The notes below the pieces were generated by a model. The model searched no databases and was not told where the DNA came from. It saw nothing but the letters and a program-made list of their open reading frames with translations. A program made the translations under genes and the position numbers. Positions 38,456-45,148 of a DNA stretch of 45,148 nucleotides are shown in pieces. Source of the DNA: Burkholderiaceae bacterium. Lineage in GTDB: Bacteria; Pseudomonadota; Gammaproteobacteria; Burkholderiales; Burkholderiaceae_C. The first letter of the stretch is position 1; each line of letters opens with the position of its first letter. The stretch covers positions 1-45,148 of the forward strand of contig JAGOPK010000006.1 in NCBI GenBank assembly GCA_017992055.1, read 5' to 3'.

Positions 38456-40093
38456 ATGGATCATCTGATGATCCAGATTCATGACACACTGCAGGCCCCG
38501 CCACCGCCAGCAGCACCCCCCTTGCGCCTGACCAAGACCAAGCTCGTGGCCGCACGCCAATGCCCGCGCCGGCTGTGGCTGATGCTGCACCGCCCGGTGA
38601 TCGAATCGCTGCCGGCCGGCCGCGAGCGGGTCATCGCCGAGGGCCACCGAGTCGGCGCGCTGGCGCGCCGCCTTGCCGAGCAGCAGACCGGCCTGGCCGG
38701 CGAGCTGATCGATGTGCAGGACGGCTGGGAGACGGGCCTGGCGCGCTGCCGCGAGCGCCTGGCCGGCGACGGGCCGGTGCTGCTGTTCGAGGCGCCGTTT
38801 GCGGTGGATGCCGGGCCTGACGGCCACGCCGGCCTGGCCGTGATCGCCGACATCGTGCACCACGATCAGCAGGGCCGGCTGCACCTGATCGAGGTCAAGT
38901 CGTCCACGCGGCTGGCCGGCAAGCCCTATGCCGAGGATGCGGCGGTGCAGGCCTGGGCCATGGCGGCGGCCGGCCAGGCGCCGCAGCAGGTGGTCATCCG
39001 CCTGATCGACCGCAGCTTCGCCTACGCCGGCGATGGCGACTACAGCGGCCTGCTGCGCGACGAGGACGTCAGCGACACGGTGGCCGCGCTGCAGCCCCAG
39101 GTGGCGCAGTGGCTGGCCGATGGCGCGGCCATCGCCGAGGGCGGCGAGCCGGCCATCCGGCCCGGCGCGCACTGCCTGCGGCCCTATCCTTGCGGCTTTC
39201 GCGGCCACTGCGACGCCGCCGATGCCGCGCTGCACGGCCCGCCGCCGACGCAGCCGGTGGCCTGGCTCACCGGCGGCCGCAACCTGGGCAAGCTGACGGC
39301 CGGCGAACGCGCGCAGATCACCGAAGCCGGCTGGACCGATCTGGGCCAGCTGCCGCCGGACTTTCCCGCCGATGGCCGGGCGCGTGCCACGCTGGCGGCC
39401 CTGCGCAGCGGCCGGCCCTGGGTCTCGCCGGGCCTGCGCGAGGCGCTGCGGGCCTTGCCCTGGCCGCGCTGGCATCTGGACTTCGAGACCATTGGCCTGG
39501 CCATTCCGCGCTGGGCCGGCGCGCATCCCTTCGATGCGCTGCCGTTCCAGTGGAGCTGCCATGTCGAGCAGGCCGATGGCCGGGTGGAGCACCATGCTTT
39601 TCTGGATCTGAGCGGCGACGACCCGCGCCCGGCCTGCGCCCGGGCGCTGGCCGGGCTGCTGGCGCCACTGGCCGCCGGCCAGGCCGGCTGCGTGCTGGCC
39701 TGGAATGCCGACTTCGAGCGCCAGCAGCTGTCTGCGCTCCTGGCCCAGGGGCAGTCGACCGCCGCGCCGCTGCGGGCGGCGATCCAGCGCCTGCACGACC
39801 TGCTGCCCATCGTGCGCCAGCACTGGTATCACCCGGCGCAGCAGGCCAGCTACAGCCTGAAGGCGGTGCTGCCGGCGGTGGCGCCCGAACTGGACCATGC
39901 CGACCTGGACGAGGTGCAGCACGGCGAGGCCGCCCAGGCCGCCTGGCTGGAAGCGGTGGACGAGGCCACGCCGCCGGCGCGCCGCGAGCAGCTGCGCCAG
40001 CGCCTGCTGGCCTATTGCGAGCGCGACACCTGGGCCATGGTGGTGCTGAGCCGGCGCCTGGCCGAGTGGCCCACGGACGAGGAGGTTCAATGA
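38456..40093 (+). CDS. DUF2779-type protein: Cas4-like plus DEDDy exonuclease domains
   Basis: A 545-residue protein. C36 (QCPRRLWL) with the cluster C240, C246 and C252 (HCLRPYPCGFRGHC) can hold an iron-sulfur cluster as in Cas4/AddB. D132 and E146-V-K148 form a PD-(D/E)xK-like active site. Residues 340-530 form an RNase H-like DEDDy exonuclease: D342-x-E344 (LDFET), D419 (AWNADFER), D448 and Y520-x3-D524 (YCERD). Such a double nuclease could trim DNA or RNA. The start is uncertain between ATG 38456 and 38468, since the palindrome overlaps the first codons. It is followed by the WYL gene with a 4-bp overlap. Confidence 0.82.
   Translation: MDHLMIQIHDTLQAPPPPAAPPLRLTKTKLVAARQCPRRLWLMLHRPVIESLPAGRERVIAEGHRVGALARRLAEQQTGLAGELIDVQDGWETGLARCRERLAGDGPVLLFEAPFAVDAGPDGHAGLAVIADIVHHDQQGRLHLIEVKSSTRLAGKPYAEDAAVQAWAMAAAGQAPQQVVIRLIDRSFAYAGDGDYSGLLRDEDVSDTVAALQPQVAQWLADGAAIAEGGEPAIRPGAHCLRPYPCGFRGHCDAADAALHGPPPTQPVAWLTGGRNLGKLTAGERAQITEAGWTDLGQLPPDFPADGRARATLAALRSGRPWVSPGLREALRALPWPRWHLDFETIGLAIPRWAGAHPFDALPFQWSCHVEQADGRVEHHAFLDLSGDDPRPACARALAGLLAPLAAGQAGCVLAWNADFERQQLSALLAQGQSTAAPLRAAIQRLHDLLPIVRQHWYHPAQQASYSLKAVLPAVAPELDHADLDEVQHGEAAQAAWLEAVDEATPPARREQLRQRLLAYCERDTWAMVVLSRRLAEWPTDEEVQ
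38457..38475. promoter_or_regulatory. Perfect palindrome at the start of the nuclease gene
   Basis: TGGATCATC-T-GATGATCCA: 9-bp arms with a 1-base spacer, overlapping the start codon and the expected early transcribed region. Together with the GATCA/TGATC repeat upstream it is the best candidate operator for the WYL regulator encoded in the same operon. Confidence 0.6.
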
Positions 40094-41103
40094 GCAAGAC
40101 GGCCAGGCTGTACAAAATCGAGATGCTGATCCGCAGCCGCGGCCATGTCAGCTTCCAGGCCCTGCTCGATGAGCTGGAGGTGTCGTCGGCCACGCTCAAG
40201 CGCGACCTGGCCTGCCTGCGCGACGAACTGGGCGCGCCCATCGAATACGACGCCGCGCTCAATGGCTACAAGTTCGGCAGCGCCGGCTTTGGCCTGCGTG
40301 GCGCGCAGCGCCATGAGCTGCCGGGCCTGTGGTTCAGCGAGCGTGAGCTGTATTCGCTGCTGATGGCGCATCAGCTGCTGTCGGGCCTGGACACCGAGGG
40401 CCTGCTCAGCCGCCATCTGCAGCCGCTGCTGGAGCGCATCCACGACCTGCTGGGCCCGGGCGACGAGTCGGCGGCCAAGGTGCTGATGAAGCGCGTCAAG
40501 ATCATCAGCGCGCTGCGCCGGCCGGTGCCGGCGGCCTGCTTCGAGCGCGTGGGCGAGGCCCTGGTGCGCCGCCAGCGCCTGCACATGCGCTACCTCACGC
40601 GCACCCGCGGCGAGGTCAGCGAGCGCCAGGTCAGCCCGCAGCGCCTGGTGCACTACAAGAACACCTGGTATCTGGACGCCTGGTGCCACAGCCGCGACAA
40701 GCTGCTGCGCTTTGCGCTGGATGCGGTGCAGGAGGCCCAGGTGCTGGAGGCCCGCGCCAAGGACGTGGCCATGCGCCAGGTCGAGGCCGAGATGGACTCG
40801 GGCTACGGCATCTATGCCGGCGGCACGCGCCGCCTGGCCGTGCTGCTGTTCAGCCCCCAGGCCGCGGCCTGGATACGCCACGAGGAATGGCATCCCGAAC
40901 AGCAGGGCGAGTTGCTGGCCGACGGCAGCTGGCAGCTGACCCTGCCCTATGTGGACGAGACCGAGCTGGTGATGGACCTGCTGCGCCAGGGCGAGCAGGT
41001 GCGGGTGCTGGCGCCGGACAGCCTGCGCGAGGCGGTGCGGCGCAGGTTGGCGGCGGCGCTGCAGGCCTATGCGCAGGCAGATGCCCAGGACGGTCGGGGA
41101 TAG
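40090..41103 (+). CDS. WYL-domain transcriptional regulator
   Basis: A 337-residue regulator. Residues 5-60 are a DeoR/HTH_11-type winged helix (VSFQALLDELEVSSATLKRD). The WYL domain (about 140-225) carries the name motif N-T-W193-Y194-L195-D, and a WCX-like C-terminal extension follows. WYL proteins sense ligands, often nucleotides, and control defence or DNA-damage genes (BrxR and CapW are known examples). GGAGG precedes the ATG, which overlaps the nuclease stop. It probably autoregulates the operon through the inverted repeats at 38380-38475. Confidence 0.88.
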   Translation: MSKTARLYKIEMLIRSRGHVSFQALLDELEVSSATLKRDLACLRDELGAPIEYDAALNGYKFGSAGFGLRGAQRHELPGLWFSERELYSLLMAHQLLSGLDTEGLLSRHLQPLLERIHDLLGPGDESAAKVLMKRVKIISALRRPVPAACFERVGEALVRRQRLHMRYLTRTRGEVSERQVSPQRLVHYKNTWYLDAWCHSRDKLLRFALDAVQEAQVLEARAKDVAMRQVEAEMDSGYGIYAGGTRRLAVLLFSPQAAAWIRHEEWHPEQQGELLADGSWQLTLPYVDETELVMDLLRQGEQVRVLAPDSLREAVRRRLAAALQAYAQADAQDGRG

Positions 41104-41155: not shown

Positions 41156-42565
41156 CTAACCCAGCTTGGACGCGTCCCGAATCGTATAGGACAGGCCGTG
41201 CCGCATGCAGGTCGCACAGAACGGATGCCTGTACTTGGCGGCTTCCAGCTCGGCATGCGGCGTGTCGACAAAGTCCAGGCCCAGCATATTGGGCTGGTCG
41301 TAGACATTGCAGCACAGCGCCACGGTGCCGTCGTGGTTGATGACGGTCTGGTTGAACCGCAGTTCGCAATCGTGTCGCGTGCTGCGGGCGGCTGCGATGC
41401 GCGGCAGGTAGACCTGGGGCGGCTCGATCAGCATCGACACGATGGGGTCGGGACTCCCGCGTCCCTCCAGCAGGTCCACCAGCCGTTCGAGCGGCTGGTA
41501 GAAGGCGGCGATCGGGTGGTGCTCGAAGCCCAGCTCGTCGCACAGCGCCCGCACGGCGGGAATGTCGGCCTCGCCGCCCTTGTACAGGTGATGGCCCACC
41601 CAGACCCGGGTCGTGGCCCGTGCCTCGTCCAGCAGGCGGCGCAGCAGGCGCATGTTGGACTTCACCAGCACCAGGTCGCCGCGCTGGTGCGTGATGGCGT
41701 AGCGCTCGGGCGTGAAGCCGGACAGCGAGATCTTCAGGTCGTCGGGGTTGGCCTGCGCCAGTTCGCGCAGGCCCCGGGTGACGTTGAGGTTGGTCGACAG
41801 ATGGCAGGGAAGGCCGCGCTGCTTGACGGCGCGCACCAGCGCTCCCAGCGCCGGGTGCAGCAAGGGCTCGCCCCAGTTGAACAGCCAGATCGCCGGCCGA
41901 GCGGCCACCGCTTCGGCCATGATCTTGTCGAGGATGCGCTCGAACAGGTCCAGCGCCATGTGGCCTCGGGGCCGCTGCGCCGCCGGGAAGTTGCCGACCG
42001 GACAGGTCGGGCAACGCAGGTTGCAGGTGCCGACCACGTCGATCGCATAGACGTAGGTGTCCGATTCCCGCGGCGCGTAGCGCAGCAGCGCGCGCCCCTG
42101 CAGCGGGTCAAGGACCTCGGGAGCCAGGTGGTCGCGCGGCTGGATGCGGTGCAGCGCGTCGCGCAGGGCGGGCGCCAGCGTCGTGCCGGGGGGCGCATGG
42201 GTTGCAGCCCGCCCCAGCCACAGCCGGGCGTCCTCCCACAGGCCCATGTGGTACAGCACCATGCCGATCTCGGGCAGGCTCTGCAGCCAGCCATCGTTGT
42301 TGCCATCCTCGGCCCAGGCCTGCTCCAGCAGCGGCAAGGCCCGGGCCGTCGACCGCTGGTGCAGGCGGATCATGCCGAGGTTGTGGCGCAGCGACGGCTG
42401 GCGCGGGTCTGCGGCCAGGAGTTGTTCATAGGCCTCCGAGGCGGCCCCCAAGTCTCCCGCCTGATGCAGGGCAAGGGCCTGTTCCAGCCCGGTCGCTTGC
42501 ACCGGACGGTCGTCCGTGGGGCGCGCTGAGGGCATCGGCCCAGGAGCCTGCGCCGGCTGGCTCAT
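41156..42565 (-). CDS. TPR-radical SAM enzyme with SPASM-like C-terminus
   Basis: A 469-residue enzyme. Residues 25-145 are TPR-like helices. The radical SAM core (about 170-350) has C181-x3-C185-x2-C188 (GTCNLRCPTCPVGN) and WGEP. The C-terminus holds C400, C418, C419, C450 and C453, resembling a SPASM auxiliary cluster (CELRFNQTVINHDGTVALCC). Such enzymes modify peptides or proteins after translation. The ATG overlaps the stop of the glycosyltransferase gene, and both lie in one operon with a PEP-CTERM protein, which is a plausible substrate. The TPR part could bind that substrate. Confidence 0.85.
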   Translation of the reverse strand: MSQPAQAPGPMPSARPTDDRPVQATGLEQALALHQAGDLGAASEAYEQLLAADPRQPSLRHNLGMIRLHQRSTARALPLLEQAWAEDGNNDGWLQSLPEIGMVLYHMGLWEDARLWLGRAATHAPPGTTLAPALRDALHRIQPRDHLAPEVLDPLQGRALLRYAPRESDTYVYAIDVVGTCNLRCPTCPVGNFPAAQRPRGHMALDLFERILDKIMAEAVAARPAIWLFNWGEPLLHPALGALVRAVKQRGLPCHLSTNLNVTRGLRELAQANPDDLKISLSGFTPERYAITHQRGDLVLVKSNMRLLRRLLDEARATTRVWVGHHLYKGGEADIPAVRALCDELGFEHHPIAAFYQPLERLVDLLEGRGSPDPIVSMLIEPPQVYLPRIAAARSTRHDCELRFNQTVINHDGTVALCCNVYDQPNMLGLDFVDTPHAELEAAKYRHPFCATCMRHGLSYTIRDASKLG

Positions 42566-44373
42566 GCAGATGCTGCCCGGCGACGGGCCTCCAGCCGGCG
42601 TTGAAAGATCGCCTCCAGCTCGGCGGCCAGGTTCCTTCCATCGCACAGCGGACTGGTGGCCATGCGATGTCGCAGGCCCGTGGGGCCGTTGTCGCGCAAG
42701 GCCTGGCGTGCTGCGAGGTCTTTTGCCAGGCCTGCCGCCTGCAGGACGTAGTCGCGCGGGCTTGTCGCCATGCCGCGAGCTTGCCCGATGGCCTGCAGCA
42801 CGGCCAGCGACTGGCGCGAGACGGGGCGCTGCCAGGGCAGCGTCACGACCGGCACCCCCATCCACAGCGCCTCCAGCGTGGAGATCAGGCCGCAAAACGG
42901 AAACGGGTCCAGCGCGACGTCGATGTCGCCGTACTCGGCCAGCATGCCGGAATGCGGCGATGCCGGCCGGGGCTGGATGCGCGCGGGGTCGACGCCGCAG
43001 GCCGCGAAACGCCGCTGCGTGTGCGTGACGAAGCCCGGGTCGGCGAAGGTCTTCCACTTCAGCACCAGGCGGCTGCCGGGCACCTCGTTCAGCACAGTCG
43101 ACCACAGCTGCACGACGTCGTCGCTGAACTTGGCCGGATTGTTGAATGAGCCGAAGGTGATGAGCCCGGTGCGGGCCGAGGGTGGTGGCGCCAGGTCCGG
43201 CGCATACGGCGGCGGCGCATAGGCGAAATGGGCGCCCGAGACGCGCTCCAGCGCTTCGGTGTAGCCGGCCTCGCTGCCCGGCGGCGCCTGCGCCGCCCCC
43301 AGCACCACCGCATCGACGGCGGGCACGCCCGTGCTGCCGAAATAGCCCAGCCAGGACAGCTGAACCGGTGCAGGGCGCAGCGCCAGCACGCCCAGCCGGC
43401 CGTGTTCGGTGTGGCCCGACAGATCGACCAGCACGTCGATCCCGGCGGCGCGGATCTGCAGTGCGAGTGCCTCGTCATCCAGGTCGGCGACGGCATGCCA
43501 GTGCTCCGCGGCGGCGCGCAGGCGCTGGTGCATCGGATCGTCGGCGATGTGATGCGGGTGGTGGTCGAAGCAGTGCAGCTCGACGACCCCGCGGTCGTGG
43601 GCTTCGATCACGGGTGCCAGCAGCCACGCCACCGGATGGGCGTACAGGTCGCCACTGAGGTAGCCCAGGCGCAGCCGACCCGCCGCTGCGGTGGGCGCCG
43701 GCCAGGGCGGTGGCGATGGCCAGGCGATCGCTGCATGCAGCGCTGTGCTGCGCAGATCGTCCGCGCCCTGGGTCGGGTCGTACTGGCTGGCCATCAGCAA
43801 GTTGGACCACACCCGGCGGTCGCGTGGTGCGAGGTCGCGGGCGTGTGCCAACGCTGCACGCGCCGCCGCCGCATCGCCCAGGTCCTGCAGTGCCAGGGCC
43901 AGGTTGATCCAGGCCTCGGGCATGCGGGCATCGACCTGCACGGCGTGCCGAAAGCACGCCAGCGCTTCGGTCAGCCGCGCTTGTGCGCGCAAGGCGATTC
44001 CGCGTGCCACCAGGGTGTGTACTGTCCCGGGCGCCAGCCGGTGGGCCTGCGCTTCCGCCTCTTCGGCGCCGGGCAGCTCGCCCAGCTGCCGCAGCGCCAG
44101 CGCCAGATTGGTCCAGGCCGCGGCGAACCCGGGATCGACGGCCAGAGCCTCACGCTGGCGTGCCGCGCCTTCGCGGTGACGCCCCAGTTCCGACAGCAGC
44201 AGTCCATGGTTGGTGAGGACGGCCGCAGCGTCGGGGGCGAGTTGCGCCGCCTGCCGAAGCAGTTCCTCGGCCGCCTTCAGGTGACCGGCGGACCGCAAGA
44301 CGCCGGCCCGTTCGACCAGCCCCGCGACCGCCGGCGCCAGTGCCGGCAGCGCCGTGTCCGCGCAGTGCGTCAA
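42562..44373 (-). CDS. O-GlcNAc transferase-like (OGT/SPINDLY) TPR glycosyltransferase
   Basis: A 603-residue enzyme. Residues about 15-195 form TPR repeats (WTNLALALRQLG, WINLALALQDLG). Residues 220-590 are the OGT catalytic part: RLRLGYLSGDLYAHPV, IDVLVDLSGHTEHGRLG, LSWLGYFGSTGV, LITFGSFNNPAKFSDDV, SRLVLKWKTFAD and LWMGVPVVTLPWQRPVSRQ. It would attach a sugar, probably GlcNAc or a related one, to Ser/Thr of a protein. Translation starts at TTG 44373, overlapping the PEP-CTERM stop (TTGA). Its upstream partner is a Ser/Thr-rich surface protein, an attractive target. Confidence 0.88.
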   Translation of the reverse strand: MTHCADTALPALAPAVAGLVERAGVLRSAGHLKAAEELLRQAAQLAPDAAAVLTNHGLLLSELGRHREGAARQREALAVDPGFAAAWTNLALALRQLGELPGAEEAEAQAHRLAPGTVHTLVARGIALRAQARLTEALACFRHAVQVDARMPEAWINLALALQDLGDAAAARAALAHARDLAPRDRRVWSNLLMASQYDPTQGADDLRSTALHAAIAWPSPPPWPAPTAAAGRLRLGYLSGDLYAHPVAWLLAPVIEAHDRGVVELHCFDHHPHHIADDPMHQRLRAAAEHWHAVADLDDEALALQIRAAGIDVLVDLSGHTEHGRLGVLALRPAPVQLSWLGYFGSTGVPAVDAVVLGAAQAPPGSEAGYTEALERVSGAHFAYAPPPYAPDLAPPPSARTGLITFGSFNNPAKFSDDVVQLWSTVLNEVPGSRLVLKWKTFADPGFVTHTQRRFAACGVDPARIQPRPASPHSGMLAEYGDIDVALDPFPFCGLISTLEALWMGVPVVTLPWQRPVSRQSLAVLQAIGQARGMATSPRDYVLQAAGLAKDLAARQALRDNGPTGLRHRMATSPLCDGRNLAAELEAIFQRRLEARRRAASA

Positions 44374-45148
44374 GCCTGAACAGCGCGGCGGCGACGGCCG
44401 AAAAGGGCGCCCATCAGGCCCAGCCCGGCGAGTCCGAGCATGCCAGCCCCGGGCTCGGGCACCGGCGCGACACCGTTGCTGCCGGTGAAGGTCCAGGTGA
44501 ACTGCTGGCCCGCCGCGCCGAAATCGGCAAACTGGTCGGTCTCCAGCGTCAACGAGAACACGAAGTCGCCCGCCGGAAGGTCCGCGTTGGCGCGCACCGA
44601 CAGGGCCGCGCCAGCACCAGCCGCGAGCGTCATGCCGCTGGTGAATCCCAGCAGGTCAAAGGAGGCCCCGTTCGGGCCGGTCAACGTGAATGAGTGCAGC
44701 GTCAGCGTGGTCAGGCTGGCCGTCGAGGCACTGTCGGTCGATGCATTGCTCACGCCGAAGGCAAAGCTGTCGCCCGGCGCCAGCGAGCCCAAGGCATGCG
44801 TGCCGCCGGTGCCAAAGTCACTGGCCAGCTCGGGCGAGACCACATGCGTGGCATCGCCGGCGAAGCCCGGCGTGACGATGCGGCAGGCGGATGCCGCGCC
44901 GTAGGAGTTGGATCCGGCGACACAGTCCTCGGCGGCCGCCGCGCCGACCACTGCCACGAAGGCGCCCGCATGCGCGGCCGTGGCCGCCGTGGCGGCCGAA
45001 CCGCTCACGTAGTGGCCGACCGGCGCCAAGGTGGCCGCCGAGGCGCCGGCGGTGCTGACGAACGACCCCGGCAGAGCGGCCTGGGCACTGGACTGCCCGG
45101 TCGATGCCACGTAGTAGCCTGGGCTGGCGAGCTTGGCGGCGCTGGCGC
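44370..45148 (-). CDS. PEP-CTERM surface protein with GxYV repeats, cut by the right edge
   Basis: At least 258 residues are visible; the N-terminus lies beyond the right edge. The visible start carries about four repeats of 17-18 residues, with (P/V/A)-G-x-(Y/F)-V followed by a Ser/Thr/Ala/Gly-rich turn. These look like ephrin-receptor/GCC2-GCC3-type repeats without their cysteines. A beta-rich choice-of-anchor-like domain follows, with VSPELASDFGTGGTHALG and DSFAFGVSNASTDS, then the tail VPEPGAGMLGLAGLG and RRRR. It is probably exosortase-anchored. It heads the operon with the OGT and radical SAM genes. Confidence 0.82.
   Translation of the reverse strand, partial: ASAAKLASPGYYVASTGQSSAQAALPGSFVSTAGASAATLAPVGHYVSGSAATAATAAHAGAFVAVVGAAAAEDCVAGSNSYGAASACRIVTPGFAGDATHVVSPELASDFGTGGTHALGSLAPGDSFAFGVSNASTDSASTASLTTLTLHSFTLTGPNGASFDLLGFTSGMTLAAGAGAALSVRANADLPAGDFVFSLTLETDQFADFGAAGQQFTWTFTGSNGVAPVPEPGAGMLGLAGLGLMGALFGRRRRAVQA
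44931..45148 (-). repeat. Protein-level tandem repeats in the PEP-CTERM protein
   Basis: About four degenerate copies of a 17-18 residue unit (SPGYYVASTGQSSAQAAL, then LPGSFVSTAGASAAT, PVGHYVSGSAATAAT, HAGAFVAVVGAA). The DNA copies are diverged; the repetition is clearest in the protein. The array continues past the right edge. Confidence 0.7.

Follow-up and report, generated by a model that had tools for sequence, protein, structure and literature searches.

Which molecule do a glycosyltransferase and a radical SAM enzyme work on when both are encoded in one operon with an exported repeat protein? The question is raised by the end of a 45,148-nucleotide stretch of DNA from a Burkholderiaceae bacterium (contig JAGOPK010000006.1 of assembly GCA_017992055.1, genome G000), referred to here as the window, in which positions 41156-45148 hold three minus-strand genes, hereafter the trio, encoding in this order a repeat/PEP-CTERM protein, a TPR-GT41 glycosyltransferase and a TPR-radical SAM enzyme:

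44370-45148, minus strand: repeat protein, C-terminal part with the PEP-CTERM tail (PF07589, E-value 7e-6)
44370-44373, minus strand: junction of the repeat gene and the GT41 gene, a 4-bp overlap (TTGA) of the repeat-gene stop and the GT41 TTG start
42562-44373, minus strand: TPR-GT41 protein glycosyltransferase, 603 aa (PF13844, E-value 5.9e-36, plus TPRs)
42562-42565, minus strand: junction of the GT41 gene and the radical SAM gene, a 4-bp overlap (ATGA) of the GT41 stop and the radical SAM ATG start
41156-42565, minus strand: TPR-radical SAM enzyme, 469 aa (PF04055, E-value 4.2e-11, plus TPRs)

An earlier note on this DNA had described three minus-strand genes joined by two 4-bp stop/start overlaps, and both the reading frames and the junctions were recovered; the TTG start, which it had assigned to the first gene, belongs to the second, that of the GT41 enzyme, where the next in-frame start codon, also TTG, lies 25 codons further. 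The exported Ser/Thr/Ala-rich repeat protein with a sorting tail was likewise borne out, by a PEP-CTERM match above the Pfam cut-off (26.4 bits versus 20.7) and by an N-terminus that on visual inspection resembles a signal peptide. The repeat reading frame has its stop at 44370 and is still open at the window end, position 45148, which coincides with a scaffold gap of 100 N (L007:7150-7249) inside the gene; the start lies beyond the window end, near G000:C18:45975 (ATG) or 46002 (GTG), and a public MAG contig labelled Pseudacidovorax (L015), which shares 11,990 bp of identical sequence with the window, spans the gap. The operon stands alone. Downstream and convergent with it, on the plus strand at 38456-41103 of the window, are a DUF2779 gene and a gene for a WYL-domain regulator; upstream of it, inspection of the sequences alone suggests genes of crcB-like, CDF-like and MFS-like type. 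Two exosortase genes (PF09721) are found elsewhere in the same genome, at G000:C17:519237-519989 and G000:C1:150205-150975.

The glycosyltransferase is readily assigned. Its PF13844 match scores 124 bits against a cut-off of 25 and is preceded by N-terminal TPR_8, TPR_2 and other TPR matches, and its nearest relatives are SPINDLY (2e-78) and the Thermobaculum OGT 5djs (9e-73). His246 and Lys415 are invariant in all seven aligned trio enzymes; the HPV (His) and FNNxAK (Lys) motifs were extracted for 12 enzymes, and we take their His and Lys to be the counterparts of the catalytic-site residues of human OGT. In a tree with 19 other GT41s drawn from the same or from outgroup genomes, the trio enzymes fall on one side of a single branch (support 69/71), and none of 500 label shuffles gave a value as low for this grouping; the tree omits L070, which has stops in the extracted sequence, as well as short or weak matches, and includes L069 and L024 as partial rows. 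In two genomes, G799 (locus L026) and G800 (locus L019), the only GT41 found is the one adjacent to the repeat gene.

The second enzyme fits its family less neatly. Three elements were located in it:

42191-42487, minus strand: TPR domain of the radical SAM enzyme, about residues 27-125
42002-42025, minus strand: radical SAM motif CNLRCPTC (CxxxCxxC), from the alignment
41207-41368, minus strand: C-terminal Cys motif Cx12Gx4CC ... CxxC, from the alignment

The motif CNLRCP[TS]C is present in all 12 trio radical SAM enzymes. Within alignment A2, which comprises 12 radical SAM enzymes including those of loci L023 and L024, PF04055 is matched by all 12 and a TPR model (Pfam, E-value 0.01 or better) by at least 10, the enzymes of G299 and G738 lying outside the TPR scan. 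Enzymes of the SPASM subfamily carry a seven-Cys motif for two auxiliary clusters. Here this motif is incomplete: the half-set, which we take to be half-SPASM or twitch-like, is intact and in frame in 11 of 12 enzymes, and PF13186 (SPASM) remains below its cut-off in the window enzyme (0.017) and reaches an E-value of 0.01 or better in 2 of 12 members. The enzyme types proposed in the earlier note were thus upheld by Pfam for the TPR-GT41 and the TPR-radical SAM protein, and not for a full SPASM domain. The window enzyme also falls far below all listed NCBIfam cut-offs, the best match being TIGR04317 (57 bits versus 380), which is the best NCBIfam match of other members too (best E-value 2.8e-19). 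A PDB sequence search with the whole enzyme returned matches dominated by TPR proteins. In locus L025 (Limnohabitans sp. 2KL-17) the radical SAM gene seems to be frameshifted near its end (L025:1780-1909), with the CxxC in another frame, which would reflect either a sequencing error or decay.

The association of the three genes was examined by a homologue search that used the radical SAM enzyme alone and was blind to the repeats. It yielded 14 species-level loci, 12 from a scan of genome contigs and two (G299 and G738) from whole-genome searches, which also re-found four of the scan loci (G011 = L016, G654 = L021, G802 = L020 and G000 = L015). The loci belong to Burkholderiales, other Proteobacteria and one member of Thermodesulfobacteriota; isolates with the trio include Desulfosediminicola flagellatus and the Oxalobacteraceae strain BJB404. 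A repeat protein accompanies the close radical SAM homologue in 12 of them (G000, G011, L017, L018, L019, L020, L021, L022, L025, L026, G299 and G738), and a GT41 in all 14. The three genes share one contig in nine of the 12 trio loci. GT41 lies on the contig of the radical SAM gene in 11 of the 14 loci, extending beyond the contig end in L018 and, in L024, being partial and about 7 kb away; in L019, L021 and L026 the radical SAM contig and a separate GT41 contig each end inside a repeat gene, and this GT41, the best match of its genome, is probably joined to the trio across the contig break. The two loci that lack repeats, L023 and L024, are counted among the 14 and not among the 12; both have GT41, and their radical SAM enzymes are 38-40% identical to the window enzyme, similar to those of the repeat-bearing L025 and L026 (39%). 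In L024 the radical SAM gene lies within a deoxysugar cluster that also encodes a nucleotidyltransferase, a dehydratase/epimerase, a 3,5-epimerase and C-methyltransferases. In L023 (L023:1-17350) the radical SAM gene is surrounded by genes for flagellin, for four GT41s, for two TylF-like methyltransferases and for hexapeptide transferases, and by its gene content this region appears to be an island for flagellin glycosylation that includes a radical enzyme.

On unbroken contigs the trio occurs in six arrangements of order and strand. The co-directional order repeat gene, GT41, radical SAM is shared by the window, G011 (overlaps at both junctions) and L017 (overlap at the first junction). The repeat gene is divergent from a GT41-radical SAM pair in G738 and from a radical SAM-GT41 pair in G299; in L018 and L022 it is divergent from the radical SAM gene, on which GT41 converges. 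In L020 GT41 is divergent from a radical SAM-repeat pair, and in L025 a radical SAM-GT41 pair converges with the repeat gene. Among the joined loci, the radical SAM gene is divergent from a repeat-GT41 pair in L021 and L026, and in L019 from a repeat gene that converges with GT41. As to the three-gene order whose conservation the earlier note had suggested checking, the genes are kept together, and the exact order of the window recurs in only 3 of 12 loci, the window included. Since the linkage survives so many rearrangements, it points to a functional tie and not to a local accident.

A comparison within genome samples is consistent with this reading and also sets limits to it. Among 369 genomes sampled from the class, the repeat query matched two, G000 and G299, and the radical SAM query at the searched limit of 1e-40 matched three, of which G000 and G299 scored better than 1e-170; the third, G258, matched at 1e-99 and has no repeats or GT41 catalytic match nearby. 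In an order sample of 399 genomes repeats were found in five and the radical SAM enzyme at 1e-40 in seven, and the three genomes scoring better than 1e-170 were all among the five with repeats. The chance of such overlap is 1.5e-5 for the class and 9.5e-7 for the order, a calculation that treats genomes as independent, which they are not. The 1e-170 limit was drawn after the score gap had been seen; at 1e-40, repeats accompany the radical SAM enzyme in two of three genomes of the class sample and three of seven of the order sample. In the class sample around G802, 3 of 242 genomes matched at 1e-40, and only G802 itself did so better than 1e-170. The repeats also occur without the enzymes: in G620 and G628, two of the five repeat-bearing genomes of the order sample, the radical SAM query had no match at 1e-40, and the surroundings of their PF07699-like repeats, to which the GT41 search was confined, contain neither enzyme.

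Eight genomes (G036, G258, G733, G734, G433, G529, G942 and G896) carry distant homologues of the radical SAM enzyme, with repeats nearby in none and GT41 nearby in one (G942); inspection by eye reveals no TPR in their N-termini, which are either short or of a WGAGxxG-type. Because of these other neighbourhoods and the lack of a TPR by eye, the matches in G258, G733, G734, G433, G529, G942 and G896 (E-values 1e-99 to 1e-46) were rejected as orthologues, and so was that in G036. In the radical SAM tree the branch that separates the 12 trio enzymes from those of L023 and L024 is weak (66/41), and the long-branch G036 is found on the trio side, where the three autotransporter-type loci group with it (83/97).

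If the linkage is functional, the part of the surface protein that stays constant should be the candidate substrate. The relevant elements of the window protein are as follows:

44886-45146, minus strand: V-type repeats AxxGx[YF]VxxxG[AQ][ST], matching the repeats of the G011 protein at 8.7e-14
44388-44465, minus strand: PEP-CTERM motif, residues 228-253 of the 258-aa piece

The repeat is a degenerate half-unit of Ephrin_rec_like (PF07699, GCC2/GCC3-like). This family was matched in the Pfam scan by the proteins of G011, L018, L020, L022 and G299 (best 6e-105) and was reported neither for the window piece (E limit 1) nor for the proteins of L017, L021 (L085), L025 and L026 (L086) at an E limit of 0.1, the L019 and G738 proteins having been left out of the scan. 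Two types of half-unit are present among the trio substrates. The C-type has a Cys pair at -5 and +9 relative to an aromatic residue, and is represented by 7 to 27 units in the proteins of L018, L020, L022, G299 and G738 and by 0 to 2 units in those of the window, G011, L017, L021, L025 and L026; the window piece and the L017, L021, L025 and L026 proteins have almost no Cys-pair units. In the V-type, position +9 is Ala, Pro or Gln in 80% of units, position +1 is Val in 85%, and Ser or Thr occupies +7 in 85%, +4 in 57% and +10 in 61%; these counts come from a simple pattern that demands Ala at -5 and an aromatic residue at 0, so that these two positions carry no evidence. The L019 protein yields two V-type units only and is too short for a verdict on the C-type. 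In a comparison that included the enzyme-free genomes, no residue set the trio substrates apart, since V-type units are also present in G620 and G628. The structure model of the repeat domain has a mean pLDDT of 34.9, too low for the model to be used; as an idea, pairs of Ala may occupy the positions once taken by disulfides.

The anchors of these surface proteins, which have about 480 to 1600 residues, are far less uniform. PEP-CTERM tails are found in the window and L017 proteins, in that of L019 by eye, and in that of G011 just at the NCBIfam cut-off and under the Pfam cut-off. Autotransporter barrels are found in L085 (for L021) and L086 (for L026) and, by eye, in the L025 protein; the G299 protein has a GlyGly-like tail (by eye), that of L020 a dockerin-like end (Dockerin_1 at 0.038, below its cut-off), and those of L018, L022 and G738 have other C-terminal ends. 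The L017 repeat protein (L017:3718-6057) combines its PEP-CTERM with an ESPR (PF13018, 3e-12), the Extended Signal Peptide of Type V secretion system. PEP-CTERM is therefore not common to all trio substrates, and because the anchors change while the repeats stay, the repeat is likely to be the shared substrate. The PEP-CTERM tail was rejected as the common recognition element on the grounds of this variation. The earlier suggestion that both enzymes act on the surface protein accordingly stands in part: conserved linkage backs a shared substrate, and PEP-CTERM is not the feature that defines it.

The occurrence of repeat proteins without the enzymes, and of two homologues (L023 and L024) without repeats, would also be expected if the operon were shared for other reasons, the enzymes acting on other proteins and the repeat protein being a passenger. 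A chance neighbour would, however, be unlikely to persist through six arrangements, distant phyla and swapped anchors, and we regard a mere passenger as highly improbable. That both enzymes act on the repeat protein is, on the conserved linkage, the likely reading.

On this reading the operon encodes a single exported surface protein together with two enzymes that would act in the cytosol and modify the repeat domain of that protein ahead of its export. The TPR domains of both enzymes probably serve to grip the repeats, and GT41 probably O-glycosylates Ser/Thr of the repeat; the radical SAM enzyme would then perform radical chemistry on the same repeats, and the protein would next pass Sec, to be sorted here by exosortase, while relatives would use other anchors. 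Substrate identity, glycosylation, order of steps, compartment and chemistry are all components of this proposal. Leaving the target atom aside, the core of it, that the two cytosolic enzymes of the operon modify the repeats of a surface protein before export, seems to us reasonably probable. The timing ahead of export rests on the precedent of FlmG of Caulobacter, the TPR part of which binds exported flagellin substrates (PMC7591256), and by analogy cytosolic TPR binding is likely for both trio enzymes. FlmG resembles the present enzyme in combining TPRs with a GT-B glycosyltransferase domain, in its cytoplasmic pathway and in its O-glycosylated exported substrate (PMC7591256); it differs in that the substrate is flagellin and the available text mentions no radical SAM partner, whereas the present operon encodes both a radical SAM enzyme and an exported repeat protein.

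The reaction of the radical SAM enzyme is harder to assign. Its structure model (pLDDT 85.9, pTM 0.82) was matched by Foldseek to DesII (3e-10, the best match), SuiB (4.3e-10), anSME (9.5e-9) and BlsE (1.6e-8), and further to BtrN (7.9e-8), SkfB (1.7e-7) and EpeE (2.7e-6), so that the predicted fold mixes sugar and peptide chemistry without separating them. Thioether (sactionine) chemistry was rejected as the common reaction because Cys is almost absent from the repeats in the window protein and in several of its relatives. Our preference, slight and weak, is for an enzyme that tailors the sugar laid down by GT41 or the glycosylated site, a tentative assignment; we lean to it over a bare side chain because GT41 is the constant partner, in 14 of 14 loci. 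A more specific version, in which the TPR-radical SAM enzyme acts on GT41-glycosylated repeats and the modification replaces, in the nearly Cys-free arrays, the stabilisation lost with the disulfides, is rather unlikely.

The presence of the peptide-modifying SuiB, anSME and SkfB and the epimerase EpeE among the fold matches, together with a TPR part that suggests a protein substrate, would suit an enzyme that changes side chains of the repeat directly, for example by Val epimerisation or a carbon cross-link, with GT41 glycosylating the same protein separately. EpeE is specific for Val/Ile, and the frequent Val at +1 of the V-type units also speaks for such a reaction. Yet GT41 stays the partner where there is no repeat protein (the flagellin island of L023 and the sugar cluster of L024), V-type units exist without the radical SAM enzyme, and the sugar and nucleoside folds DesII, BlsE and BtrN match equally well, which makes direct modification of side chains doubtful, though it stands close behind the tailoring reading in probability. 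The same three folds, and the position of L024 within a deoxysugar cluster, would agree with action on a free nucleotide sugar, the enzyme making the donor of GT41 and not touching the protein. This is clearly unlikely: a TPR domain is hard to explain on a small-molecule enzyme, homologues without a TPR are mostly without GT41, and no sugar-nucleotide gene lies directly beside the trio among the called reading frames, which were read and not profile-searched. One epimerase-like reading frame was seen about 3 kb from the trio in L026.

Tailoring of a protein-bound sugar or glycosite, the reading to which we lean, would combine features that are known separately. Cytosolic glycosylation of exported proteins is established. 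HMW1C, a GT41-related enzyme, glycosylates the large secreted adhesin HMW1 in the cytosol before export; it transfers its sugar to N-linked sites, lacks TPRs and is not known to have a radical SAM partner. Both systems pair a GT41-related enzyme with a secreted surface protein, to which the trio adds TPRs and the radical SAM enzyme. Radical SAM enzymes are known to act on short peptides or small sugars. The RiPP maturases SuiB, SkfB and EpeE are encoded beside their ribosomal substrate, and the trio enzyme shares with them the radical SAM fold (Foldseek) and a gene adjoining that of the putative substrate; they act on a short precursor peptide, whereas the trio substrate would be a large anchored protein and the enzyme has TPRs and a GT41 partner. 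DesII, BlsE and BtrN, whose radical SAM chemistry is done on small sugars or nucleosides, rank with the closest fold matches and are not known to have a TPR tie to a glycoprotein. In a full-text literature search of partial coverage, no account of the repeat/GT41/radical SAM trio and no description of the radical SAM enzyme were found. The suggestion of a new modification system agrees with this outcome and with the conserved three-gene linkage. If correct, a conserved cassette directing the two enzymes to the same repeat domain, regardless of the anchor, would extend radical SAM chemistry to large surface proteins, and radical chemistry on a protein-bound sugar or glycosite would constitute a new class of surface-protein maturation. 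The signature of the repeat plus two enzymes can be used for finding further cases.

The system is rare, being present in 2 of 21 genomes of the same genus, and this patchy spread would fit a horizontally moving cassette. A plasmid search gave two partial matches, one of 36% identity covering 65% of the query and one of 32% covering 60%. Distantly related radical SAM genes also occur in groups, four at L040:8779-19740 and three at L109:7871-11261, without repeats or GT41, and several of these have, by eye, an N-terminal region of the WGAGxxG type.
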